Source of the DNA: Actinomycetota bacterium
GTDB lineage: Bacteria > Actinomycetota > Geothermincolia > Geothermincolales > RBG-13-55-18
Direction: 5' to 3'
Length of the DNA stretch: 62,448 bases
Assembly (NCBI GenBank): GCA_013178005.1
Contig: JABLXL010000026.1
Coordinates: forward strand, 1-62,448
Shown: positions 6,804 to 62,272 of the stretch, piece after piece
Position numbering within the stretch: position 1 is the first letter of the stretch
Layout of the letters: every line of letters starts with the position of its first letter
Position numbers and translations under genes: made by a program
Notes under the pieces: model-generated
The model's database searches: none
What the model was told of the DNA's origin: nothing
Seen by the model: only the letters and a program-made list of their open reading frames with translations

Positions 6804-7054
6804 CGAACCTTGTCAGGATGACAGGGTGGTCTCCCAACTTTTTCAACTCGGAAAGCGTCCACTGAAAGGATGAAGCTTCCGTCATTCGGAAAACGCCCGG
6901 GCCGACTTCCCATGCGGCCTTGGAACCCCGTCCGCTGCTTGGTAGTCGAAAAAGCGGGGCTTCGGGTTTCCCGGAATTGCCTCGCCATCCGCCATGAGTT
7001 AATTTCTTGCTAGCCCTGTCCCGGATCGGAGGCAGTAGAAAGATAGGAAAAGCC

Positions 7055-10000
7055 ATGGCCGCTTCACCCCGTTGGGAACGAAAATGGAGACTGTGGCCGT
7101 TCGTCGTCACCGCGCTTGCGCTGGCGGCCTTCTTCCACTCCATGCTCACCCTGTCGAAGGTTCCCTGGATCAGCGACATCAAGTCCTATTATTACCCCGC
7201 CTGGCGTTATCTCTCCCATGCCTTCCGTTCCGGGGGCCCTTCCCTGTGGTGCCCCGGGATATACTGCGGTTTTCCCCTCTTCGCCGACAGCGAGATGGGG
7301 ATTTTCTACCCCATCAACCTCCTCTTTTTCCAGCTCCCCGCCACGGCTGGGTTCAACTATTCCATCGTCCTTCACTACCTTCTGGGGGCCGCTTTCACCT
7401 ACGCCTACTGCCGCCGCCTGCGCCTGGGCCGTTCCGCCTCCCTTTTCGCCTCCCTCCCCTTCATGTTAGGGGGGTTCTTCCTGGCCCACCTGGTGCACCC
7501 CAACGCCGTCGCCACCGCCGCCTGGATGCCCCTGTTCCTGTACTGCCTGGAGAGGGCCCTTGCGGAAGGAAGGCCTTCCTTTCACCTCGCCGCTGGAGGC
7601 GTGGTCGGCCTCCAGTGCCTCTCGGGTTTCCTGATGATACCGCTCATGGAGGGGCTGCTTGCCGCCTTCTACGTGGTCTCCTACCGTTTCGAGGACCACG
7701 GGGAAAGGCGGAGGGCCGTGCTGTCCAACCTCGCCTGGCTCGCCCTGGCGCTGGGCCTGGGGGCGGGCTTGGGAATGGCGCAAAACCTTCCCAGCTACAA
7801 CCTGGTGCAGAGCTCATACCGGGCGGGCGGCCTTTCGGAAAAGGTCGCGGGGATAGGGAGCCTGCCCCCTGCTCAGCTGATGGGCATCGTCTTCCCGCGC
7901 CTTTTCGGGCGCGGCATAGCCCAGGGTGGTTACCTGGGAGCCTGGACCTTCGAGGAAACCTATGCCTACATGGGAATACTCCCGATTCTCTTCGCCCCCG
8001 CGGCGTTGCTGCGTCCGCGCAGGCGACACGCGGTTTTCTTTTTCTGGGTCGGCGCCGTCTCCCTCGTCCTGAGCCTGGGGAAGTACGGCCTGCTCTGGTC
8101 GGCCCTTCGCCACCTTCCGGGCTTCAACGTGCTCAAAGGATCGAGCCGCTTCCTGCTCACCTTCAACCTTTCCCTGGCCGTGCTGGGAGGCATGGGTTTC
8201 GAGCGCTGGCGGAGCGCGGAGTGCCCCTCGCGCCTGGCCGCAACCCTCTCCCGCGCCTGGCTGAGGTTCGCCGCGGCCTCGGCCTCGTTCCTGGCCCTAT
8301 TCGCTCTCCTCTACCGCTTCAATCCCCTTGGCTTCAGGGACTTGGCCGTGGCGGCGGCAAGGCCTTTTCTGGCAGGCATTAAGCTCCCCACCCACCAGGT
8401 CCTGGATGGCATGGTCTCATTCTTCACCGCGCCGCGCCTCGAGTTCCTGCTGCCGTTGGTGATGCTCGCCCTTTTCCTGCTGCTTATACGTGTAAACGGC
8501 GGGAGCGGTTACGGGCCGAGCCGCCTCAAAGCGTTCATCGCCGTGGGCCTGGCCGTGGTGGATGTCTTCGCCTTCGGCAGCTTCGTCTTCAAGCCCGTGC
8601 CCCGAGCCCGCGCCGATTACAAGCCCCCGGTCATAGGGTTCCTGGAGGAGAACGCCGACGGCGCGAGGGTGGCCATGGCCAAGGAGCCGGGGGTGGATCG
8701 CGGCGAGTTTCCCCTTTGCTCCAACCAACTGCTCCCCTACGGACTCGAGGACGCCTTTGGGTTTTCCACCATCCCCCCCGCGCGCCTGGACCGCTTTCTC
8801 GCCCTGGTGAACAACCGCCCGGAAGCCCCCGCCTTCGAGCTGCTTGGAGTGAGCATGCTTTACTCCAGCCTGGTGCGGGTTGACGGCACCGCCTACGACC
8901 TCTCCGACCCCTATAACATGCCCGCCGGGCTGGGATCCGTGGTCTACGCCTTCCCGCAACAGACCTCGGGCAGGGAGCTGCGCCTGCTCTTGGACGGCGC
9001 GATCCTTGATCCCAGCGCATCCGGAAGCCTGTGCATCAAGTTGAACTCCATCGTCAACGGCCGCGTGGTGAAGCACCCCGTACTCTTCCTGCACAAGGAC
9101 ACCGGCGACGATCCCTATTTCCTGGAGGTCCTGGACGCGGAGCAGACTGCCTCCTTCGCGCGCGTCCGCTTCAAGTCCCCCGGCCACGGCCAGGGACGGG
9201 ACGCGCTGGAGATAAAGGTACCCCTACCCAGTTTGGGAAAGGCCGACGAGCTGATCCTGACCACGCTTTGCGATAACTCCCTGGAGGGAACTCGCCTCGC
9301 GGCCCTCACTGTAATCGACGAGGATGGGCGGCGCGTGCCCCTCACCGCGTGGCCTTCCGTGTACAGCGACGGCAGGCAAGTGGTCTACCGGCTGCCGGGC
9401 GACCCGGCCTTGGCCTACCCGGCCTGGAAGGTCGCCTGGAGCGGAAGCTGGGGGGAAGCGGTGGATCGCGCCTTCCGCGAAGGGAAAGGAGTGTCCGAAG
9501 GAGAGGTCATCCTGGTCGAAGGCGAGGTGGACGCCGCTTTGCGGGAGGCGCTCTCGAAACTGCCCGTCCCCGAAGAAGCGCCTTCCATTGAGGTCACGGA
9601 ACGCGGGGACGGACGCCTTTCCCTGCGCGCGCGTGGCGAGAGCGATTTTGTGCTAGTAGTCTCGCTGGATTACCTTCCCGGGTGGAAGGCTGAGGTGGAC
9701 GGCGAGAAGGCCGACCTCTTCTCCGCCAACGGCTTTCTCACCGCCCTCTATCTGACCGGGGGAGACCACGAAGTTGTTCTCTCCTATCGCCCTCCCGGCC
9801 TCGTGGCGGGAGCCGTCTTGTCCTCCATTTCGCTTGTATTGCTTGCAGCGCTTTTCCTCCTGCTGAGGAAACGGGAGCGCGAGGCGCAGGCGACGGATCG
9901 GGCCGGCGGGGAAACGCCTGTAAAGGAGCCGTCACGGGGGAGCATAAGCGCTTTCTTCCCCTGCTACAACGATTCCGCGACTTTGAGGGAGCTCATCGAG

Positions 10001-10636
10001 AAAGCCCTCTCCGTGCTCGAGGAGCTCACCGACGACTACGAGGTGATCGTGGTCGACGACGGGAGCGCCGACTCCTCGGGCCAGGTCATCGATTCGCTCG
10101 CGGCGCGCTACGAGAAGGTCCGGGTGGTGAGGCACGACCGTAACCGGGGGTACGGGGCGGCCCTGCGCAGCGGGATAAAGACCTCGACCAAGGAATGGGT
10201 CTTCTACACCGATAGCGACGGACAGTACGACGTGGAGGACCTGCGCCGGCTGCACGCCTTGAGCGGCGGGGCTGACGTGGTCAACGGCTTCAAGGCTGGG
10301 CGCAGCGACGCTTGGTACCGCGTGCTGCTGGGCTCGGCCTACAACCGGCTGGTCCACTTCGCTTTTGCCATCCCCATCCGTGACGTGGACTGCGACTTCA
10401 GGCTCATGCGCGGGGAACTGGTACGCGGCCTGGACCTTCGCTCCGAGGGAGGGGCGATCTGCGTGGAGCTGGTGAAGGAACTGGAGGCGGCCGGGGCGGT
10501 CTTCGCGGAGACGCCGGTGGGCCATTACCCGCGCGCCGAGGGCAAGAGCCAGTTCTTCCGCCTGAAAAACCTGCTTGTCATGGGCAGGGAGATTGCGGCA
10601 CTATGGTGGAGAATGCAGAGGAAAGGGGTGGTGTGA
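7055..10636 (+). CDS. YfhO-like membrane glycosyltransferase fused to a GT2 polyprenyl-phosphate glycosyltransferase
   Basis: About 1193 residues. The first ~500 contain roughly a dozen hydrophobic helices starting at WPFVVTALALAAFF, with YfhO-family features such as the early extracellular D/Y-rich loop (SDIKSYYYPAW). A large non-membrane region (~510-910) follows, then one helix at ~916-939 ending in a basic RKRERE stop, which puts the rest in the cytoplasm. Residues ~962-1193 are a soluble GT-A family 2 domain (FFPCYND, VVVDDGSAD, and TDSDGQYD near 1050), closest to dolichol/undecaprenyl-phosphate sugar synthases. In Firmicutes, CsbB-type GT2 and YfhO are separate proteins that charge a lipid carrier and transfer the sugar outside. 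Here both appear in one chain. I start at ATG 7055 (AGGA upstream) rather than the TTG at 7007. It is followed directly by sugar-modifying genes. Confidence 0.85.
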   Translation: MAASPRWERKWRLWPFVVTALALAAFFHSMLTLSKVPWISDIKSYYYPAWRYLSHAFRSGGPSLWCPGIYCGFPLFADSEMGIFYPINLLFFQLPATAGFNYSIVLHYLLGAAFTYAYCRRLRLGRSASLFASLPFMLGGFFLAHLVHPNAVATAAWMPLFLYCLERALAEGRPSFHLAAGGVVGLQCLSGFLMIPLMEGLLAAFYVVSYRFEDHGERRRAVLSNLAWLALALGLGAGLGMAQNLPSYNLVQSSYRAGGLSEKVAGIGSLPPAQLMGIVFPRLFGRGIAQGGYLGAWTFEETYAYMGILPILFAPAALLRPRRRHAVFFFWVGAVSLVLSLGKYGLLWSALRHLPGFNVLKGSSRFLLTFNLSLAVLGGMGFERWRSAECPSRLAATLSRAWLRFAAASASFLALFALLYRFNPLGFRDLAVAAARPFLAGIKLPTHQVLDGMVSFFTAPRLEFLLPLVMLALFLLLIRVNGGSGYGPSRLKAFIAVGLAVVDVFAFGSFVFKPVPRARADYKPPVIGFLEENADGARVAMAKEPGVDRGEFPLCSNQLLPYGLEDAFGFSTIPPARLDRFLALVNNRPEAPAFELLGVSMLYSSLVRVDGTAYDLSDPYNMPAGLGSVVYAFPQQTSGRELRLLLDGAILDPSASGSLCIKLNSIVNGRVVKHPVLFLHKDTGDDPYFLEVLDAEQTASFARVRFKSPGHGQGRDALEIKVPLPSLGKADELILTTLCDNSLEGTRLAALTVIDEDGRRVPLTAWPSVYSDGRQVVYRLPGDPALAYPAWKVAWSGSWGEAVDRAFREGKGVSEGEVILVEGEVDAALREALSKLPVPEEAPSIEVTERGDGRLSLRARGESDFVLVVSLDYLPGWKAEVDGEKADLFSANGFLTALYLTGGDHEVVLSYRPPGLVAGAVLSSISLVLLAALFLLLRKREREAQATDRAGGETPVKEPSRGSISAFFPCYNDSATLRELIEKALSVLEELTDDYEVIVVDDGSADSSGQVIDSLAARYEKVRVVRHDRNRGYGAALRSGIKTSTKEWVFYTDSDGQYDVEDLRRLHALSGGADVVNGFKAGRSDAWYRVLLGSAYNRLVHFAFAIPIRDVDCDFRLMRGELVRGLDLRSEGGAICVELVKELEAAGAVFAETPVGHYPRAEGKSQFFRLKNLLVMGREIAALWWRMQRKGVV

Positions 10637-11704
10637 TTGCAGGGCTTCGCGCCGTTGAGCGAAAGGTATTCCGGCAAGCGCGTCCTGGTGACGGGTGGTC
10701 TTGGTTTCATCGGGAGCAACCTGGTACGACGCCTGGTGCGTACGGGAGCCTCGGTAACCGTCATCGACGCCTGTTTCCCGGACCAGGGAGCCAACCTCTT
10801 CAACCTCAAGGGAATACTCGACGAGGTGGCCTTGGTGATCGCCGACGTGGGGCGCGTTGACGATATCTCCGCCTATATGGTCGACCAGGATTACGTGTTC
10901 AACCTCGCGGCTTGCATAAGCCACGTGGGCTCGCTCCGCGATCCCCTGCGTGACCTCGAGCGCAACTGCGTAAGCCAGCTCCGTTTCCTGGGAGCCCTCA
11001 CCGAGCTAAGCCCGGGGGCACGGGTGCTGTACACGGGCTCGCGCAGTCAGTACGGGAGCCCCTCGTACCTGCCCATGGACGAGGAACACCCCATGAAGCC
11101 CGTGGACTTCAACGGCGTACACAAGACCGCGGTGGAGGAGTACCACCGTATCCTGCACGGGCTGGGTAAGCTTCGCTACACCTCCCTGCGCCTCACCAAC
11201 ATATACGGCCCCCGTCACCAGATGCACCATGACGGGCAGGGCTTCCTCAACTGGTTTATCCGCCAAGCCCTGGCGGGCCAGGAGATCTGCGTTTACGGCG
11301 ACGGCGCCCAGAAACGCGATTTCCTGTACGTCGACGACGCGGTGGAGGCCATACTTCTGGCCGCCTCGGACCCCAGGTGCGAGGGGGAAGCCTTCAACCT
11401 CGCCTCGGGAGTGCCTACGAGCGTTAAAGAAGCTGCGGAAACGATATGTGGACTCGCGGGGAACTCATGCCGCTGCGTTCCCTACCCTCCCGAAGCGGTG
11501 GCGGTGGAACCGGGCGACATGCACCTGGACGGATCGCGCCTGCAAAAACTCCTGGACTGGAGGCCACGCGTCGGCCTCGAGGAGGGAATAGCCAGGACCC
11601 TTGCTTTCTACCGCCGCTACGGCTCGCGCTACTTCCACGAAGGCAGGGGACGCGTGGCGCTGGAGGCCAGCACCCTGGGATTAGGAGCAAGTTCGGAAAA
11701 ATGA
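10637..11704 (+). CDS. Extended SDR nucleotide-sugar epimerase/dehydratase with altered active site
   Basis: A 355-residue Rossmann-fold enzyme of the NAD-dependent epimerase/dehydratase family. The NAD motif TGGLGFIG is at residues 19-26 and a TGSRSQYG segment follows the central strand. The usual catalytic YxxxK appears as N159-G-V-H-K163, so lysine is kept but tyrosine is replaced by asparagine. The C-terminal substrate-binding part (RDFLYVDDAVEA, LASG) is normal. The TTG start directly follows the stop of the preceding gene, with AAAGGGG upstream, so translation is probably coupled. The likely role is processing a nucleotide sugar for the surface glycan made by this gene block; the exact sugar cannot be read from sequence. 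Confidence 0.88.
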   Translation: MQGFAPLSERYSGKRVLVTGGLGFIGSNLVRRLVRTGASVTVIDACFPDQGANLFNLKGILDEVALVIADVGRVDDISAYMVDQDYVFNLAACISHVGSLRDPLRDLERNCVSQLRFLGALTELSPGARVLYTGSRSQYGSPSYLPMDEEHPMKPVDFNGVHKTAVEEYHRILHGLGKLRYTSLRLTNIYGPRHQMHHDGQGFLNWFIRQALAGQEICVYGDGAQKRDFLYVDDAVEAILLAASDPRCEGEAFNLASGVPTSVKEAAETICGLAGNSCRCVPYPPEAVAVEPGDMHLDGSRLQKLLDWRPRVGLEEGIARTLAFYRRYGSRYFHEGRGRVALEASTLGLGASSEK

Positions 11705-11828: not shown

Positions 11829-12944
11829 ATGGTCGATACCTACATCCCCTTTCTGGATCTGTCTACCCGAGACCAGGGCCTGGTCGCCGAGCTCTCGGAG
11901 GCCTTCGCGCGCGTCATCTCGAGGGGAAGGTTCGTCCTTGGCCCCGAGGTCACCGCCTTCGAGCGTGAATTCGCCACCTTTTGCGGGGCGCGGGAAGCGG
12001 TGGGAGTTGCGTCTGGAACCGACGCCCTCATCCTCGCCCTAAGGTCCTTGGGCATATCTCCCGGAGACGAGGTGATCACACCCGCCCTTTCCGCTCCCCC
12101 CACCGCCGTGGCCGTGTCCCTGGCCGGGGGGCGTCCGGTCTTCGTGGACATACATCCGGAGACCCGCTGCATCGACCCGGACAAGATCGAGGAGGCCATC
12201 GGGCCGCGCACGCGTTTCCTGCTCGTCGTACACCTATACGGGCGCGTCGCCGACATGCGGGAGCTGGCGCGCATCGCGGATGAACACGGCCTGGCGATAG
12301 TCGAGGACTGCGCCCAGGCCCATGGCGCGCGCGCGCACGGAAGGTCGGCGGGCACCTGGTCGCGAGCCGGCTGCTACAGCTTCTATCCCACCAAGAACCT
12401 GGGCGCGTACGGTGACGGGGGGGCGGTGATCACCGATGATACGGAGCTGGCCCGGCGCTTGCGCAGATTGCGCGACTACGGTCGCGTCGACCGCGACAGG
12501 CTGGGGGAGATAGGGATGAACAGCCGACTTGACGAGCTGCAGGCCTCCTTCCTGCGCGTCAAGCTGCGTCGCCTCGAGGAATGGAACCGTCGCCGCCGAG
12601 AGCTGGCGCGCCGTTACCGGGAAGGCCTGGAAGGCCTCCCCCTCGACCTCCCCGCCTGGGACGGAGAGGAGGACCATTGCTTTCACCTCTTCGCAATAGG
12701 CTGTGACAAGCGCGACGAGCTCCGCCTGCACCTCGAGGGAAAGGGCATCGAGACCGCCGTGCACTACCCCGTGCCCCTCCACCTCCATGATCCTTACCTG
12801 GAGGGAGGGAGGCCGGTTTTTTCCTGCCCGGAGGCGGAGCGTTTCTGCGCGCGGGCGGTATCCCTTCCCCTTCACCCCTCCCTGACCGACGAGGAGCAGG
12901 ACGCGGTCATCCTGGCGGTCAGGGACTTCTACCGCCGGCGATAA
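11829..12944 (+). CDS. DegT/DnrJ/EryC1/StrS-family PLP aminotransferase
   Basis: A 371-residue fold-type I sugar aminotransferase. The PLP-binding lysine is K189 in PTKNLGAYGDGG; the upstream SGTDAL and EDCAQAHGA motifs are standard. Enzymes of this family aminate keto-sugar nucleotides (for example at C3 or C4) in glycan or antibiotic-sugar pathways. The ribosome site before the ATG is weak, and there is a 124-base GC-rich gap after the epimerase gene, in which I see no gene. The context suggests that the epimerase/dehydratase and this enzyme together make an amino sugar delivered by the YfhO-GT2 protein. Confidence 0.93.
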   Translation: MVDTYIPFLDLSTRDQGLVAELSEAFARVISRGRFVLGPEVTAFEREFATFCGAREAVGVASGTDALILALRSLGISPGDEVITPALSAPPTAVAVSLAGGRPVFVDIHPETRCIDPDKIEEAIGPRTRFLLVVHLYGRVADMRELARIADEHGLAIVEDCAQAHGARAHGRSAGTWSRAGCYSFYPTKNLGAYGDGGAVITDDTELARRLRRLRDYGRVDRDRLGEIGMNSRLDELQASFLRVKLRRLEEWNRRRRELARRYREGLEGLPLDLPAWDGEEDHCFHLFAIGCDKRDELRLHLEGKGIETAVHYPVPLHLHDPYLEGGRPVFSCPEAERFCARAVSLPLHPSLTDEEQDAVILAVRDFYRRR

Positions 12945-13023: not shown

Positions 13024-13542
13024 TTAAATATAAGTAGTGAGCCGCTTGCAATCCAACTTGCGCGGCTGCACCTCTTCGCGCGCCGGGTATCCCACCGGGA
13101 CCAAGGCGAGGGGCCTGATGTCGCGGGCCAGGTTCAGCGCGCGCGCCACCTCATCCTCCCTGAAAGCGCCCACCCAGCATGCACCGAGTCCCAGGGCGAC
13201 CGCGCACAGAAGCAGGTTCTCGATGGCCGCCGCGGTGTCCTGAATGGCATACAGTTCCACCCCGCGCCTGCCGTAGGCCGAGGCATGGGCGGCGAGGTCG
13301 GCGCACACCACGATGACAACGGGAGCATCGGCCACGAAGGACTGGCCCAAGGCCGCTTCCGCCAGCCTCGTCTTGATGTCGGCGTCGCGCACCACCACGA
13401 AGCGCCAGGGCTGCACGTTCCCCGCCGATGGCGCCTGGCACGCGCATCGCAAGAGCTCCTCCACCAGCTCTTCGTCCACCTTTCTCCCGGGATCGAAGGA
13501 GCGCACGCTCCTCCTCTTCTCCATGGCCTCGAACACGTCCAT
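13024..13542 (-). CDS. Nitroreductase-family FMN oxidoreductase
   Basis: A 172-residue flavoprotein. The N-terminal EKRRSVRSF phosphate-binding motif, the QAPSAGNVQPW segment and the late GLGACWVG loop are typical of small nitroreductases. It probably uses NAD(P)H to reduce a nitro compound, quinone or flavin; the substrate is unknown. It begins 12 bases after the P1 peptidase stop with GAGGGG upstream, so the two likely form an operon. It converges with the aminotransferase gene, with no clear terminator in the 79-base gap. Confidence 0.93.
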   Translation of the reverse strand: MDVFEAMEKRRSVRSFDPGRKVDEELVEELLRCACQAPSAGNVQPWRFVVVRDADIKTRLAEAALGQSFVADAPVVIVVCADLAAHASAYGRRGVELYAIQDTAAAIENLLLCAVALGLGACWVGAFREDEVARALNLARDIRPLALVPVGYPAREEVQPRKLDCKRLTTYI

Positions 13543-13554
13543 CGCCAGCCCCTC

Positions 13555-14502
13555 TCATGCCAGGTCGGCGTGGGCGGGAATGCCCGCCACTCCCTCTGCG
13601 TGCAGGACCGCGTTGCGCACCGCCCGCGCCATGAGCGCCGCGCCCAATATGCCCACCGCGTCCGCGGCCGCCTCCACCTCTCCCGTTGCGGCCGCGAACA
13701 CCAGGTCGCCGTCCAGCTTGGTGTGGCTGGGCACTATGGCCCTGGCCAGGCCGTTATGCCCTCTCTGAGCCACCCAGTTCACGTCGGTCTTACCGAGCCG
13801 GGCGTTGGTCACTATCACGCCCAGGGTGGTGTTGGTCAGAGGGGAGATGCCTCCACCCCCCAGGGCGGCCTCTATGCACGATTCCGTGCGGGCGAATCCT
13901 CCCCCGGGAAGCCGCGCTCCCGCCAGCACCCGTCCCTCCTCGTCCACCACGTCCCCGAAGGCGTTGACCACCGCGAGCGCCAACACCTTCAAGCCATCTC
14001 CCTCGAAAAAGGCGGTCCCCAGGCCGCCCTTGGTGGCGTTCGCGGGGCCCAGCATCATCCCCACCGTGGCGCCCATCCCCGCCCCCACATTTCCCTGGCG
14101 CGTCAGGTCTTCCTCCGCGTTCAGGCAGGCGAGATAGCCCATTTCCGCATCCGGCCTGGCGCCGGCATCCCCCACCGCCAGGTCGTAGATGACCGCCGCG
14201 GGGACGATGGGGACGCGCGCCACCCCGGTATCGAAACCGATGCCCCTTTCCTCCAGGTAACGCACCACGCCCACGGCGGATGCCAGCCCGAAGGCGCTGC
14301 CGCCGGAGAGGACGAAGGCGTGCACTTCCTCCACCAGGTTCACTGGGTCGAGGAGGTCGGTCTCCCGCGTCCCCGGCGCTCCCCCCCTCACGTCAACGCC
14401 CCCCTTGGCGCCCGGGGGCAGCAGCACCACCGTGCACCCGGTAAGGCCCTTTTCGTCCTCCGCGTGCCCCACCTTCACGCCATCGATTCCGAAAGCCGCC
14501 AT
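13555..14502 (-). CDS. P1 family (DmpA/NylC-type) self-processing peptidase or amidase
   Basis: A 315-residue Ntn-hydrolase-like protein. The family is made as one chain and cleaves itself to free an N-terminal nucleophile. The predicted break is N224-T225 in PLTNTTLGV, the same Asn-Thr site as in nylon oligomer hydrolase NylC, rather than the Gly-Ser of DmpA. The upstream GGSAFGLASA and NATKGGLGTA segments are also conserved. Members hydrolyse N-terminal amino acids, beta-amino acid peptides or cyclic amides. AAGGAGG precedes the ATG. The leader contains a palindrome and a spaced direct repeat. Confidence 0.92.
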   Translation of the reverse strand: MAAFGIDGVKVGHAEDEKGLTGCTVVLLPPGAKGGVDVRGGAPGTRETDLLDPVNLVEEVHAFVLSGGSAFGLASAVGVVRYLEERGIGFDTGVARVPIVPAAVIYDLAVGDAGARPDAEMGYLACLNAEEDLTRQGNVGAGMGATVGMMLGPANATKGGLGTAFFEGDGLKVLALAVVNAFGDVVDEEGRVLAGARLPGGGFARTESCIEAALGGGGISPLTNTTLGVIVTNARLGKTDVNWVAQRGHNGLARAIVPSHTKLDGDLVFAAATGEVEAAADAVGILGAALMARAVRNAVLHAEGVAGIPAHADLA

Positions 14503-14532
14503 GGATTCCTCCTTTTCGAGAAAAGGCGCCGC

Positions 14533-14641
14533 GAGCGAATCGCCTCCTCAAAGCACCTCTTTGTGATTATCACAAAGTCATCAAATTATTATGGACAAGA
14601 AAATCTTGAGCGAATCGTCTCCTCAAAGCACCCCTCTGTGA
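14533..14641. repeat. 34-bp direct repeat pair, 75-bp period
   Basis: 14533-14566 and 14608-14641 are the same sequence with 3 mismatches in 34, in direct orientation, separated by an AT-rich 41-base spacer. They lie in the leader of the P1 peptidase gene. One copy ends inside the operator-like palindrome at 14560-14576. Confidence 0.9.
14560..14576. promoter_or_regulatory. Operator-like palindrome TTTGTGA-TTA-TCACAAA
   Basis: A perfect 7-bp inverted repeat with a 3-base centre, 58 bases before the P1 peptidase start codon, in an unusually AT-rich patch. On the minus strand it contains the -10-like hexamer GATAAT. This is the form of a dimeric repressor or activator site, and its position suits control of the P1 peptidase-nitroreductase pair. 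The regulator is unknown. Confidence 0.5.
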
Positions 14642-14718
14642 CCCCCGCGCCGGTCCGGGTTTCAGCGGGCTACAACCTAGGAGTCGACGCCCCGGCACGG
14701 CCCGGTCCCCAGGGCCAG

Positions 14719-16278
14719 CTAGTCTCCGTAGCGGACCAGGTCCCTCGCGAACCTCAGGGCATCCTCCCTGCTCTTCAGGGCTCCCTCCAACTGCGCCACG
14801 CGCACTTCCTTCAATATCTCCCCTATGAACGGGCCTTGCTCCAGGCCGAGCTCGTGGATGAGGTCGCGACCCATGATCAGGGGCGGCATCTCCCTTTCGC
14901 GACGGTGCTCGTCCAGCAACGTCCGGCAGAAAGCGACGTAACGCTCCAGTTTCTCCGGGGTGGAAAGGGGACCCCGGGTCGCGTAACGGTCCGCGGTGGA
15001 CAATAGGACCACGTCCACCAGCTCGTCACCGAGGCGGGCCAGCAGCCTGCGTATCCGCCTTGGAGTCGGGCGGTCCGCCATGGCCAGCCCGATGTCCATA
15101 TGGCCCGCCACCACGCCGACTATATAGTCCCCCGCCCTGCGCGAAAGCCGCAGGCGCTCCACCAGCTCCACCGCCGCCTCGCGGCTGTGCTTCTGGTGGG
15201 CGTAGAAGTGTATGCGTCCCGAAGCGTCCCGCGACAGAGTCTCGGCCTTGCCCGCGTCGTGGTACAGTGCCGCGAGACGCAGGAAGGCCTTGCGCGGGTA
15301 TAGGTCTTGCAGCGGTTCCTCAAGGCGCCCCGTGATGTATTCCTCGTGCCCGGGAAAGACCGCCCTGGGATCCGAGATCAGGCGGTCGAGCTCCTCCAGG
15401 GCGAGCAGGGTGTGGGACCACACGTCCAGGTGATGGTAAGCGTTCTGCTCCAGTCCCACCAGGGGCACGAGGTGAGGGAACACGTGCTGCATGAGCCCCG
15501 TGGCCTCCAGGTCAGAGAATATGGGCGCGGTGTCGGGCATGAGAAGCGTCTCCAGCAACTCCACGGCTATGCGCTCGCCCGGCGCCCTGGTGATAAGAGG
15601 GGCGTACTTCTTCATGTGGTTTAGGGTGCGCTCCTCGTACTCCAAGCCCAAGATGTGCCGGAAGCGCAAAGCCCGCACCAGGCGCACCGGGTCCATGAGA
15701 AAGGATTCATTGGAACATTCGCGCAGGATGCCCCGGGAGAGGTCCCTCCACCCATAGTGCTTATCCACCAGGTCCCGCGGCAAGCGCAGTTCCCCTCCCA
15801 CCAGCCTCTCGATGTCCAGGGCCATGGCATTTATGGTGAAATCCCGGTAGGACAGATCCTCCTCCACGCTCATGCCCTTTATGGGAGCGAAATCGATGGT
15901 GCGCCTCCCATTCCAGCCCCCTTCGGCCACCACGCGATAGGCTCCGTCCTCCTCGTGGAGCAGAAAAGCCTTGCCGCCCAGGCGGGCGGCCGCCTCTTCC
16001 GCAAGCTCTCGAGGATCGCCTGCGGTGATGAAGTCTATATCCGCGGGCGTCGTTCCCAGGAAATAGTCCCTGAGGTAACCGCCCACGAGATAGATCTCCT
16101 TCCCGCGCCGCGAGGCCAGGAAGGACAGCAGCGGCCCCATGAAGGGGTCTGCGCTTTTCAACTCGCCCAGCTCAAGGGTCTTGGGAAGGGGTCGCAAGCT
16201 CTCTCCTCCGCTACGAATCTCCCATGGGGCAGGGACCTGGATGATGAATGCCCTCCGGTAGGCACGGCGGTCTGACAT
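14719..16278 (-). CDS. cca: CCA tRNA nucleotidyltransferase with HD domain
   Basis: Adds or repairs the CCA end of tRNA. The class II polymerase-beta-fold head has LVGGYLRDYFLG and the metal-binding ADIDF pair, followed by YRDFTINAMA and RLVRALRF. The second half holds an HD phosphohydrolase domain with LYHDAGK. The open frame runs to 16452, but the first ~58 residues are atypical; ATG at 16278 gives about 519 residues and is preferred, although no strong ribosome site is visible. The length and HD tail match actinobacterial PcnA/Cca proteins, so poly(A) polymerase activity cannot be excluded. Confidence 0.9.
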   Translation of the reverse strand: MSDRRAYRRAFIIQVPAPWEIRSGGESLRPLPKTLELGELKSADPFMGPLLSFLASRRGKEIYLVGGYLRDYFLGTTPADIDFITAGDPRELAEEAAARLGGKAFLLHEEDGAYRVVAEGGWNGRRTIDFAPIKGMSVEEDLSYRDFTINAMALDIERLVGGELRLPRDLVDKHYGWRDLSRGILRECSNESFLMDPVRLVRALRFRHILGLEYEERTLNHMKKYAPLITRAPGERIAVELLETLLMPDTAPIFSDLEATGLMQHVFPHLVPLVGLEQNAYHHLDVWSHTLLALEELDRLISDPRAVFPGHEEYITGRLEEPLQDLYPRKAFLRLAALYHDAGKAETLSRDASGRIHFYAHQKHSREAAVELVERLRLSRRAGDYIVGVVAGHMDIGLAMADRPTPRRIRRLLARLGDELVDVVLLSTADRYATRGPLSTPEKLERYVAFCRTLLDEHRREREMPPLIMGRDLIHELGLEQGPFIGEILKEVRVAQLEGALKSREDALRFARDLVRYGD

Positions 16279-50255: not shown

Positions 50256-51458
<1,203 letters not shown>

Positions 51459-54680: not shown

Positions 54681-58826
<4,146 letters not shown>

Positions 58827-58872
58827 GGGATTACCTCCTTAAACGATACATCCGTGACGTCTCCAGGAGAGC

Positions 58873-61800
58873 TCAGAACTCCTCGTCCAGCTCCGCATCC
58901 ACGCTCCTCTCCCCCTCGCTCCGGGTGGAAAGAAGGGCGGCGGAGGCGCTCCTGAGGTCGATGCCGAGGTCATCGGCGGTGCGCATGAGGTCCTCATCGG
59001 TTTCCCGTATCTCTATCTCCTCGCCGGTCTCCGAGAGCACCTCCACGTCGAGACACAGGGCCTGCATCTCCTTTACCAGAACCTTGAAGGATTCGGGTAT
59101 TCCCGGCTCCGGTATGTTCTCGCCTTTCACGATGGCCTCGTATACCTTGACGCGGCCCATGACGTCGTCGGACTTTACGGTGAGGAGCTCCTGCAGGGTG
59201 TACGCGGACCCGTACGCCTCCAGGGCCCACACCTCCATCTCCCCGAACCTCTGCCCGCCGAACTGCGCCTTTCCGCCCAGCGGCTGCTGGGTGACCAGGG
59301 AGTAAGGGCCGGTGGAACGGGCGTGTATTTTGTCATCCACGAGGTGGAGCAGCTTCATCACGTATATGTAGCCCACGGTAATGGGCTGGTCGAAGGGCTT
59401 TCCGGTTATGCCGTTGTATAGGATGGTCTTACCAGACTCCGGGAGCCCCGCCTCCCTCAAAGCCTCCTCGATCTCATGCTCGCGGGCGCCGTCGAACACG
59501 GGTGTGGCCACGTACACCGGTCCGTCCGCCTTGTTCTTGCCTTTCTTGGGCCAGCCCTCGTGGGCCGCCCAGCCCAGGTGGGTTTCCAGGATCTGGCCGA
59601 TGTTCATGCGCGAGGGGACTCCGAGGGGGTTCAGCACCAGGTCCACGGGCGTGCCGTCCTCCATGAAGGGCATATCCTCGACGGGGAGGATCTTGGAGAT
59701 GACTCCCTTGTTGCCGTGGCGCCCGGCGAGCTTGTCGCCGTCGGATATCTTCCTCACCTGGGCGACGTAGACCCTCACCATCTGGTTGACCCCCGGCGGA
59801 AGCTCGTCCCCCGCGTCGCGCGAGAAGACCTTCACGTCGATCACCTTGCCCGACTCTCCGTGGGGGACCTTGAGCGAGGTGTTGCGCACCTCGCGGGCCT
59901 TTTCGCCGAAGATAGCCCTGAGCAGACGCTCCTCGGCGGTCAGCTCAGTCTCGCCCTTGGGGGTGACTTTTCCCACCAGGATATCGCCCGGGTTGACCTC
60001 GGCCCCGATGCGGATGATGCCCATCTCGTCCAGATCCTTGAGCATATCCTCGCTCACGTTGGGGATATCGCGGGTGATCTCCTCCGGGCCCAGCTTGGTG
60101 TCGCGAGCATCCACCTCGTGCTCCTCGATGTGGATGGAGGAAAGCACATCGTCGTAGACCATGCGCTCCGAAACGATGATGGCGTCCTCGTAGTTGTAAC
60201 CCTCCCAGGGCATGAAGGCCACGAGGAGGTTCTTCCCCAGGGCGATCTCCCCGTGATCGGTGCAGGGGCCGTCGGCGATGACCTGTCCCTCCACCACCTC
60301 GTCTCCTTCGTCGACGATGGGCTTCTGGTTGACGCAGGTGCCCTGGTTGGAGCGGCGGAACTTGGCCACTTTGTACACGTCCACCTTGCCGTTCTTCCTC
60401 TTCACCTCGATGCGCTCCGCATCTACGTAGGTCACGGTGCCGCCTGCCTTGGCGGTGATGACGTCGCCGGTGTCCTTGGCGGCACGGTACTCCATGCCCG
60501 TGCCGATGAGGGGAGCCTCCGAGCGCAGCAGGGGTACTGCCTGGCGCTGCATGTTCGAGCCCATGAGGGCCCGGTTCGCGTCGTCATGCTCCAGGAAGGG
60601 GATGAGGGCCGTCGCCACCGAGACGATCTGTCGGGGCGAGACGTCCATGTAATCCACGTCCTCGGGATGCGCCGCCACCACGTTTCCTCCCTTGGTGCGG
60701 CAGAGGATGGTGGGGCTCTCGAAACGCCCCCTCTTATCCACGGGAGCGTTCGCCTGGGCGATAACGTATTTCTCCTCCTCGTCCGCGGTGAGATAGACGA
60801 TCTCGTCCGTGACTCTCCCTTTCACCACCTTGCGGTAGGGGGTCTCGATGAAACCGAACTCGTTCACGCGCGCGTAGGTGGCAAGCGACCCGATGAGCCC
60901 GATGTTGGGCCCTTCCGGAGTCTCGATGGGACACATGCGCCCGTAATGCGAGGGGTGCACGTCGCGCACCTCGAAGCCCGCGCGCTCCCGCGAAAGCCCG
61001 CCCGGCCCCAGGGCGGAGAGCCTCCGCTTATGGGTGAGTCCCGCCAGGGGGTTGGTCTGGTCCATGAACTGGGAGAGCTGGCTGGAGCCGAAGAACTCCT
61101 TTATGGCCGCCACCACGGGGCGGATGTTGATGAGGTTCTGGGGCGTTATGGCCTCCGCCTCCTGGGTGGTCATGCGCTCCTTCACCACCCGCTCCATGCG
61201 GGAAAGCCCTATGCGCACCTGGTTCTGTATGAGCTCGCCGACCGAACGGACCCTGCGGTTTCCGAAATGGTCGATGTCATCCACCTCGTCGATGTCGTTT
61301 TCCACCACGCTCAAGAGGTAGCGGATGGTGGCCAGGATGTCCTCGAAAGTGAGGGTGGTCACGGAGAGGTCTATATTCAATCCCAGTTTTTTGTTCAGCT
61401 TGTAGCGCCCAACCTTCGCCAGGTCGTAGCGCTTGCGGTTGAAGAAGAGGTTTTCGAGCAAGGTGTTGGCGGAATCGGCGGTCGGGGGCTCGCCCGGCCT
61501 CAGCTTGCGGTAGATGTCGATCAGGGCGTCGTCCCGGTTCTTTGTGTGGTCCTTCTCTAGGGTGGCCTCTATGATCGGCGAACCGTCGAAAAAGGAGAGG
61601 ATCTGTTCGTCTTTCTCGTACCCCAGTGCGCGCATGAGCACCGTCACCGGCTGCTTGCGCTTGCGGTCTATCCTGACCCCGATGACGTCCCTCTTGTCGG
61701 TCTCGAACTCCAGCCAGGCGCCTCGCGAAGGGATTATCTTTGCGTAGTACAGTTCTTTGTCCGAGGCCTTGTCCAGCTCCTTGTCGAAATACACCCCCGG

Positions 61801-62211
61801 CGACCTGACCAGTTGCGACACCACCACGCGCTCGGTGCCGTTGATGATGAACGTACCCCGGTCGGTCATGAGGGGGAAGTCCCCCATGAAGACCACTTGC
61901 TCCTTTATCTCCCCTGTATCCTTGTTGATGAAACGCACGGTGACGAACAGCGGCGAGGAATAGGTCATATCCTTTTCCTTGCACTCGTCCACGTCGTATT
62001 TCGGATCCTGGAAATGGTGCTCTCCGAACTCAACCGCCAGGTTCGCCGTGTAGTTCTCTATGGGCGAGATGTCCTCAAAGACCTCGCGCAGCCCGTCGGT
62101 GCGGAACCATTCGTATGATTTCTTCTGGATGTCGATTAGGTTTGGCACTTCGAGGATTTCCGGTATTTTGGCGAAGTTTCTCCTCACGCGAACGCCCTGG
62201 CTTTCGTTCAC
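58873..62211 (-). CDS. rpoB: RNA polymerase beta subunit
   Basis: A 1112-residue beta subunit. The rifampicin pocket [20 protein letters not shown] and [12 protein letters not shown] has wild-type residues, so sensitivity is expected. The lysines and [17 protein letters not shown]-type C-terminal region are conserved. The open frame continues to 62271, but GTG 62211 with GAGGT five bases upstream begins the conserved part. rplJ/rplL do not lie directly upstream within the window. Confidence 0.98.
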
Positions 62212-62272
62212 CGTTGACCTCACTCCTTTACCGTGATAAGGCGCAAAATACCCTCCTGATACGCAAAACACT

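Follow-up and report, generated by a model that had tools for sequence, protein, structure and literature searches.

The window, the whole 62,448-nucleotide stretch of DNA that was analyzed, encodes on its forward strand a long protein in which a GT-C glycosyltransferase of the YfhO family is followed, in one reading frame, by a GT2 glycosyltransferase. Genes for an extended SDR and for a DegT-type sugar aminotransferase come next on the same strand (Table 1). Upstream, on the opposite strand, are groEL, tsaD, an acetyltransferase gene, tsaB, tsaE, and a uracil-DNA glycosylase gene. An open frame at 13285-15006 (+) gave no family match and lies opposite genes for a nitroreductase and an S58 peptidase, so we regard it as a shadow frame. 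The core genes for rpoC, rpoB, and EF-Tu (54681-62271 [-] and 50256-51458 [-]) share this contig with the fusion and the genes behind it.

Table 1. Coordinates of the features of the fusion gene and the two genes behind it, with the evidence for each
Feature	Position in window	Strand	Evidence
Fused GT-C (YfhO family)-GT2 protein, 1193 aa	7055..10636	+	One open frame; PF09586 and PF00535 above cut-off
Membrane core of the GT-C half (residues 1-511), starting on the inner side	7055..8587	+	Foldseek GT-C matches, topology
First extracytoplasmic loop, residues 34-95, with invariant Asp41	codon 7175-7177	+	Alignment
Beta-rich extracytoplasmic domain (residues 512-915), flanked by the last two membrane helices	8588..9799	+	Pfam, hydropathy, AlphaFold
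Last membrane helix (916-951), Lys/Arg-rich cytoplasmic exit, and linker: the fusion junction	9800..9940	+	Hydropathy, AlphaFold
Cytoplasmic GT2 domain, residues 963-1193, without C-terminal transmembrane helices	9941..10633	+	Pfam, alignment, model
Nucleotide-sugar enzyme of the extended SDR type; its TTG start immediately follows the fusion stop	10637..11704	+	Profile and alignment
SDR Asn159, replacing the catalytic Tyr of YxxxK	codon 11111-11113	+	Alignment
DegT/DnrJ/EryC1/StrS sugar aminotransferase, after a 124-base gap from the SDR gene	11829..12944	+	Profile and alignment
DegT PLP-binding Lys189	codon 12393-12395	+	Lys in 30/30 rows

The ATG at 7055, taken as the start of the fusion gene, is backed by the N-termini of relatives; a TTG at 7007 likewise opens the frame. 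Both families named in the sequence-only reading of this DNA were recovered above their Pfam cut-offs. PF09586 (YfhO) scored 46.3 bits over residues 855-923 (cut-off, 28.5), and PF00535 (GT2) matched residues 965-1093 with 91.4 bits; both families were matched by all 13 full-length fusions described below. In the fusion protein the direct PF09586 match is limited to profile positions 766-835, the last 70 positions, and most of it falls in the extracytoplasmic domain. The possibility that the N-terminal half belongs to another GT-C family was rejected: the direct Pfam match is to YfhO, and a PMT_2 match at residues 105-235 scored below its cut-off (24.4 versus 26.1). Among NCBIfam profiles, the YfhO end of the fusion was matched by the C-termini of PgfM1 and PgfM2, and the best match of the GT2 domain, below threshold, was ArnC. 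The GT2 motifs are DDGS (residues 1001-1004), DSD (1053-1055; codons 10211-10219), RDVDCDFR, and RxxGxS, the first two being where the earlier reading had placed them. The linker ahead of the GT2 domain differs in length among relatives.

Hydropathy averaged over the fusions gave 13 membrane segments ahead of the GT2 domain. Because the AlphaFold model (pLDDT 90.2, pTM 0.80, from 44 sequences) breaks residues 174-208 into two helices, we count 14. With this count the Arg/Lys-rich loops lie inside and the GT2 domain is cytoplasmic, and both hydropathy and the model predict an extracytoplasmic loop of 407 residues ahead of the last helix. The earlier description of about 12 helices, a large extracellular domain, and a final helix was essentially right, as was its placement of the GT2 domain inside the cell. 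For B. subtilis YfhO, 13 helices and a loop of 389 residues at the same place have been reported (PMC5836110). A weak additional hydropathy peak at residue 1099 is within the GT2 fold; no hydropathy peak was found beyond that fold, and in the model the chain finishes with a single helix (1170-1190).

Structure searches with Foldseek gave separate answers for the two halves. For the GT2 domain, the whole fusion model matched ArnC (E of 2e-11), DPMS (5e-10), and GtrB (2e-9). The model of residues 1-950 matched AftD, EmbB, PglB, ArnT, STT3, and AftA, all of them GT-C enzymes, down to an E of 1e-3. In a viral structure library the hits were, among the matches listed, mostly generic GT2 proteins. 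The GT2 domains of CsbB, ArnC, and GtrB carry a C-terminal pair of transmembrane helices. The sequence-only reading had likened the GT2 domain to CsbB-type enzymes, and this did not hold up: the domain is closest to ArnC and DPMS, carries no membrane-spanning helices itself, and in the GT2 tree falls far from the GT2s of the unfused YfhO-GT2 gene pairs of its own class. In the GT-C half, Asp41 was present in all 27 aligned rows, which included both fused and unfused YfhO-like proteins, and it is likely the catalytic base. The catalytic roles given here to both halves are inferred from their families.

The class with the fusion is the actinobacterial Geothermincolia, or Ca. Solincola. The closest named relative is Candidatus Solincola daggyaiensis, a name we take to belong within this class. 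Of 31 class genomes that were searched, 13, including the genome of the window, encode a full-length fusion, with the halves in the same order and with neither internal stops nor frameshifts. The survey of related genomes that had been suggested yielded the same fusion repeatedly, and the fusion is real and lies outside Firmicutes, as had been claimed. A join produced by sequencing error is excluded by the same uninterrupted frame in 13 separate assemblies. When 396 genomes were drawn from the phylum, those outside the class contained no fusion, only stand-alone GT2 or GT-C matches (E ≤ 1e-40). No report of a YfhO-GT2 fusion was found in the literature covered, which included subscription papers in part.

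Not every genome of the class has the two halves in one gene. In genus g3 the GT-C and the GT2 are separate genes; in one genome of this genus (G008) they are divided at the fusion junction, where the GT-C gene ends in ...YRRKREGDGLEG* and is overlapped by the GTG start of the GT2 gene, with GGAGG ahead of the GTG. In a second genome of this genus (G004, L127:3195-6809) the GT-C is broken into three pieces and in-frame stops occur within the GT2; because stops interrupt both halves, we consider this locus to be decayed or badly assembled. Elsewhere in the class, in G003, the fusion is spread over contig ends. A tree of GT2 domains unites the 17 from the class in a single clade (99/98), inside which the three unfused domains are nested, and in the GT-C tree the 13 full-length fusions are on one side of a branch. 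To judge from these trees, a single fusion event with later splits would fit best, and more than one fusion event may be an alternative history.

YfhO-family proteins also occur apart from the fusion. A second member in the genome of the window (769 aa; L111:8705-11014, contig C6) is 33% identical to the fusion over residues 27-417 and matches PF09586 positions 53-389 and 755-834. Its gene adjoins a gene for a TMEM260-like mannosyltransferase and lacks a neighboring GT2 gene. Elsewhere in the class, YfhO and GT2 genes that are not fused form pairs with the order of the fusion. Pairs of another type, in which YfhO is succeeded by a different GT2, belong to other families of the class, where the two genes lie near each other (L112-L118 and L120). 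One of these pairs (L115) is beside PMT_2, DUF2079, and ABC-2 exporter genes, which suggests a surface polysaccharide locus.

The enzymes encoded behind the fusion gene are candidates for making its sugar donor. The SDR aligns with UDP-glucose 4-epimerases, with Asn159 in place of their catalytic Tyr, so that the motif reads NGxxK instead of YxxxK. Among 48 aligned SDRs of GT2-SDR-DegT cassettes from several phyla, the Asn and the Gly next to it were present in all and the Lys in 45; judged by this alignment, the NGxxK proteins are possibly an undescribed SDR subfamily. The solved structures closest to the DegT protein include 2oga, QdtB, and WbpE, which we take to be 3-aminotransferases, 2oga being of the DesV type, that aminate C3. 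Because the nearest relatives of the DegT protein are these C3 enzymes, an amino sugar, perhaps a 3-amino sugar, is the likely product, and such a sugar is probably the donor of the fusion. Two points weigh against this scheme: the SDR is missing the usual catalytic Tyr, which leaves its reaction in doubt, and in two of the genomes (G015 and G017) no SDR was seen beside the gene.

The same association is found with unfused GT2s. Unfused relatives of the GT2 domain, mostly 40 to 50% identical to it, occur in Chloroflexota, Acidobacteriota, Verrucomicrobiota, Planctomycetota, and other phyla. Among 27 close GT2 relatives with enough downstream sequence, an SDR gene was within 5 kb in 19, a DegT gene in 17, and both in 15; the corresponding numbers in a more distant GT2 set were 1 of 20 for SDR and 0 of 20 for DegT. 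The unfused GT2-SDR-DegT cassettes (L029-L105, for example, L037, L050, and L069) often have, just upstream, a gene of about 245 codons and a gene for a PMT_2-type GT-C; in the one case tested (L037) the smaller gene encodes a methyltransferase. When multi-helix neighbors of unfused GT2s were scanned (n = 30), 18 were PMT_2 and 3 were DUF2079, and YfhO-like genes were beside the cassette at two loci (L047 and L052). Multi-helix genes were near 14 of 19 unfused GT2s versus 12 of 31 background genes at the same loci, a modest excess.

A GtcA-like flippase had been expected nearby or elsewhere in the genome. None of 20 Geothermincolia genomes, that of the window among them, gave a match to PF04138 (GtrA/GtcA), whereas 7 of 14 control genomes were positive; consequently, the fusion does not reproduce the complete CsbB-GtcA-YfhO trio. 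Matches to PF00893, the small-multidrug-resistance type and presumably the family of ArnE and ArnF, were found in 5 of the 20 genomes, none of them in families f1 to f3. Wzx-type flippases (PF01943) were present in all 20, and because they are present in all, their presence is uninformative about which one serves the fusion. In the Gac system of S. pyogenes, a flippase of this type is proposed to substitute for GtrA (PMC8035078).

We consider it likely that the fusion is a bifunctional membrane glycosyltransferase that both loads a lipid carrier and carries out the transfer from it. From its family and motifs, the cytoplasmic GT2 domain would move a sugar, probably the amino sugar made by the SDR and the DegT aminotransferase, from a nucleotide sugar onto polyprenyl (undecaprenyl) phosphate. 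The lipid-linked sugar would then cross the membrane by means of a flippase other than GtcA/GtrA, possibly of the Wzx type. On the outer side the YfhO-family half would attach the sugar to a glycan or protein of the cell surface, with Asp41 as the likely base and with the extracytoplasmic domain perhaps aiding in acceptor binding. Against this scheme, the GT2 domain may serve a different GT-C, and the YfhO half may draw on another donor. A bolder version would have loading and unloading take place as one unit without a flippase, the amino sugar coming from an SDR with a new catalytic center (Asn for Tyr), and the whole being a surface glycosylation pathway that shares its sugar-making cassette with many little-studied phyla; we think this very unlikely.

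Fusion alone is no proof that one domain uses the product of the other, because Ppm1 of M. tuberculosis joins such a GT2 to a membrane domain that is unrelated (PMC3485146). The GT2 of the Geothermincolia protein could thus supply several GT-C enzymes of the cell with a polyprenyl-phosphate sugar, with the fusion just keeping a GT2 that has no transmembrane helices at the membrane. Ppm1 has the same layout, a membrane domain and then a GT2, which are one protein in M. tuberculosis and two in M. smegmatis (PMC3485146); Geothermincolia have fused and split forms as well. However, the partner in the fusion is not an unrelated protein but belongs to the type of glycosyltransferase that draws on lipids of this sort, and unfused YfhO-GT2 gene pairs recur in Geothermincolia. 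We judge that the fusion is unlikely to be an anchor and nothing else, although this is the leading rival reading.

Two readings would assign the locus to a known pathway. According to one, the fusion is a direct member, in Actinomycetota, of the CsbB-GtcA-YfhO teichoic acid system with GlcNAc as the sugar. Membership in the YfhO family and the matching loop topology are consistent with this, but no PF04138 protein was found in 20 of 20 genomes although controls were positive, the GT2 has no membrane helices, its best NCBIfam and structural match is ArnC, and the linked SDR and DegT genes are foreign to that system; we find direct membership quite improbable. What stands of the sequence-only reading is that a YfhO-family GT-C and a GT2 share one chain in an actinobacterium, with the predicted topology that loading inside and transfer outside would require, and that coupling of the first and last steps is likely; the identity with CsbB-GtcA-YfhO does not, given the missing GtcA, the other GT2 subtype, and the attached SDR and DegT genes. 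According to the second reading, the locus is an arn-like pathway that makes and transfers 4-amino-4-deoxy-arabinose, for which speak the adjacency of an SDR, an aminotransferase, an ArnC-like GT2, and a GT-C, and the recovery of ArnT in the structure search with the GT-C half. Yet the aminotransferase is nearest to C3 enzymes and not to ArnB, the equivalog cut-offs were missed by far (75 versus 529 bits for ArnC and 213 versus 631 bits for ArnB), and the SDR is without the catalytic Tyr, and so we consider this pathway extremely unlikely.

If the fusion is the bifunctional enzyme proposed above, a single natural chain would allow loading and transfer to be tested together and would pose directly the question of whether a flippase is needed; it also comes with two candidate enzymes for making the donor. 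The role of YfhO-type proteins in the last step rests mainly on genetics, and a 2018 study stated that biochemical evidence is lacking (PMC5836110). The linked GT2, SDR, and DegT genes in many phyla point to a widespread surface sugar, of which we found no description.

The fusion and its locus share features with several known systems. Like YfhO, CsbB, and GtcA of B. subtilis and Listeria (PMC5836110, PMC8035078), the fusion combines a GT-A enzyme to load the lipid carrier with a GT-C of the YfhO family whose last helix is preceded by a large extracytoplasmic loop; in contrast, the Geothermincolia enzymes are in one chain, the GT2 is without helices, GtcA/GtrA was not found in the genomes searched, and SDR and DegT genes follow. 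AftD, ArnT, STT3A, and PglB have been named in a review as homologues of the GT-C members of such systems (PMC8035078). Mycobacterial Ppm1 (PMC3485146) likewise has an N-terminal membrane domain and a helix-less C-terminal GT2 that are fused or split depending on the relative, but its membrane part does not belong to the GT-C glycosyltransferases. ArnC and ArnT, which together with ArnA and ArnB put Ara4N on lipid A, resemble the locus in combining an SDR, a DegT aminotransferase, a GT2 that loads undecaprenyl phosphate, and a GT-C that unloads it; they are, however, separate proteins, the ArnC and ArnB cut-offs are not reached at the locus, its aminotransferase is of another type, and its SDR has Asn for Tyr. 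In the S. mutans protein glycosylation system, PgfS, PgfM1, PgfE, and PgfM2 (PMC5856776), a GT2 and an SDR are also clustered with membrane proteins whose C-terminal domain is similar, but the proteins are separate, the epimerase is not an Asn-type SDR, there is no aminotransferase, and the acceptor is a protein. Finally, GacI, GacJ, GacK, and GacL of S. pyogenes (PMC8035078), although they include no fusion, are similar in having a GT-A enzyme, there with a separate membrane partner, a proposed flippase of the Wzx rather than the GtrA type, and transfer by a GT-C.
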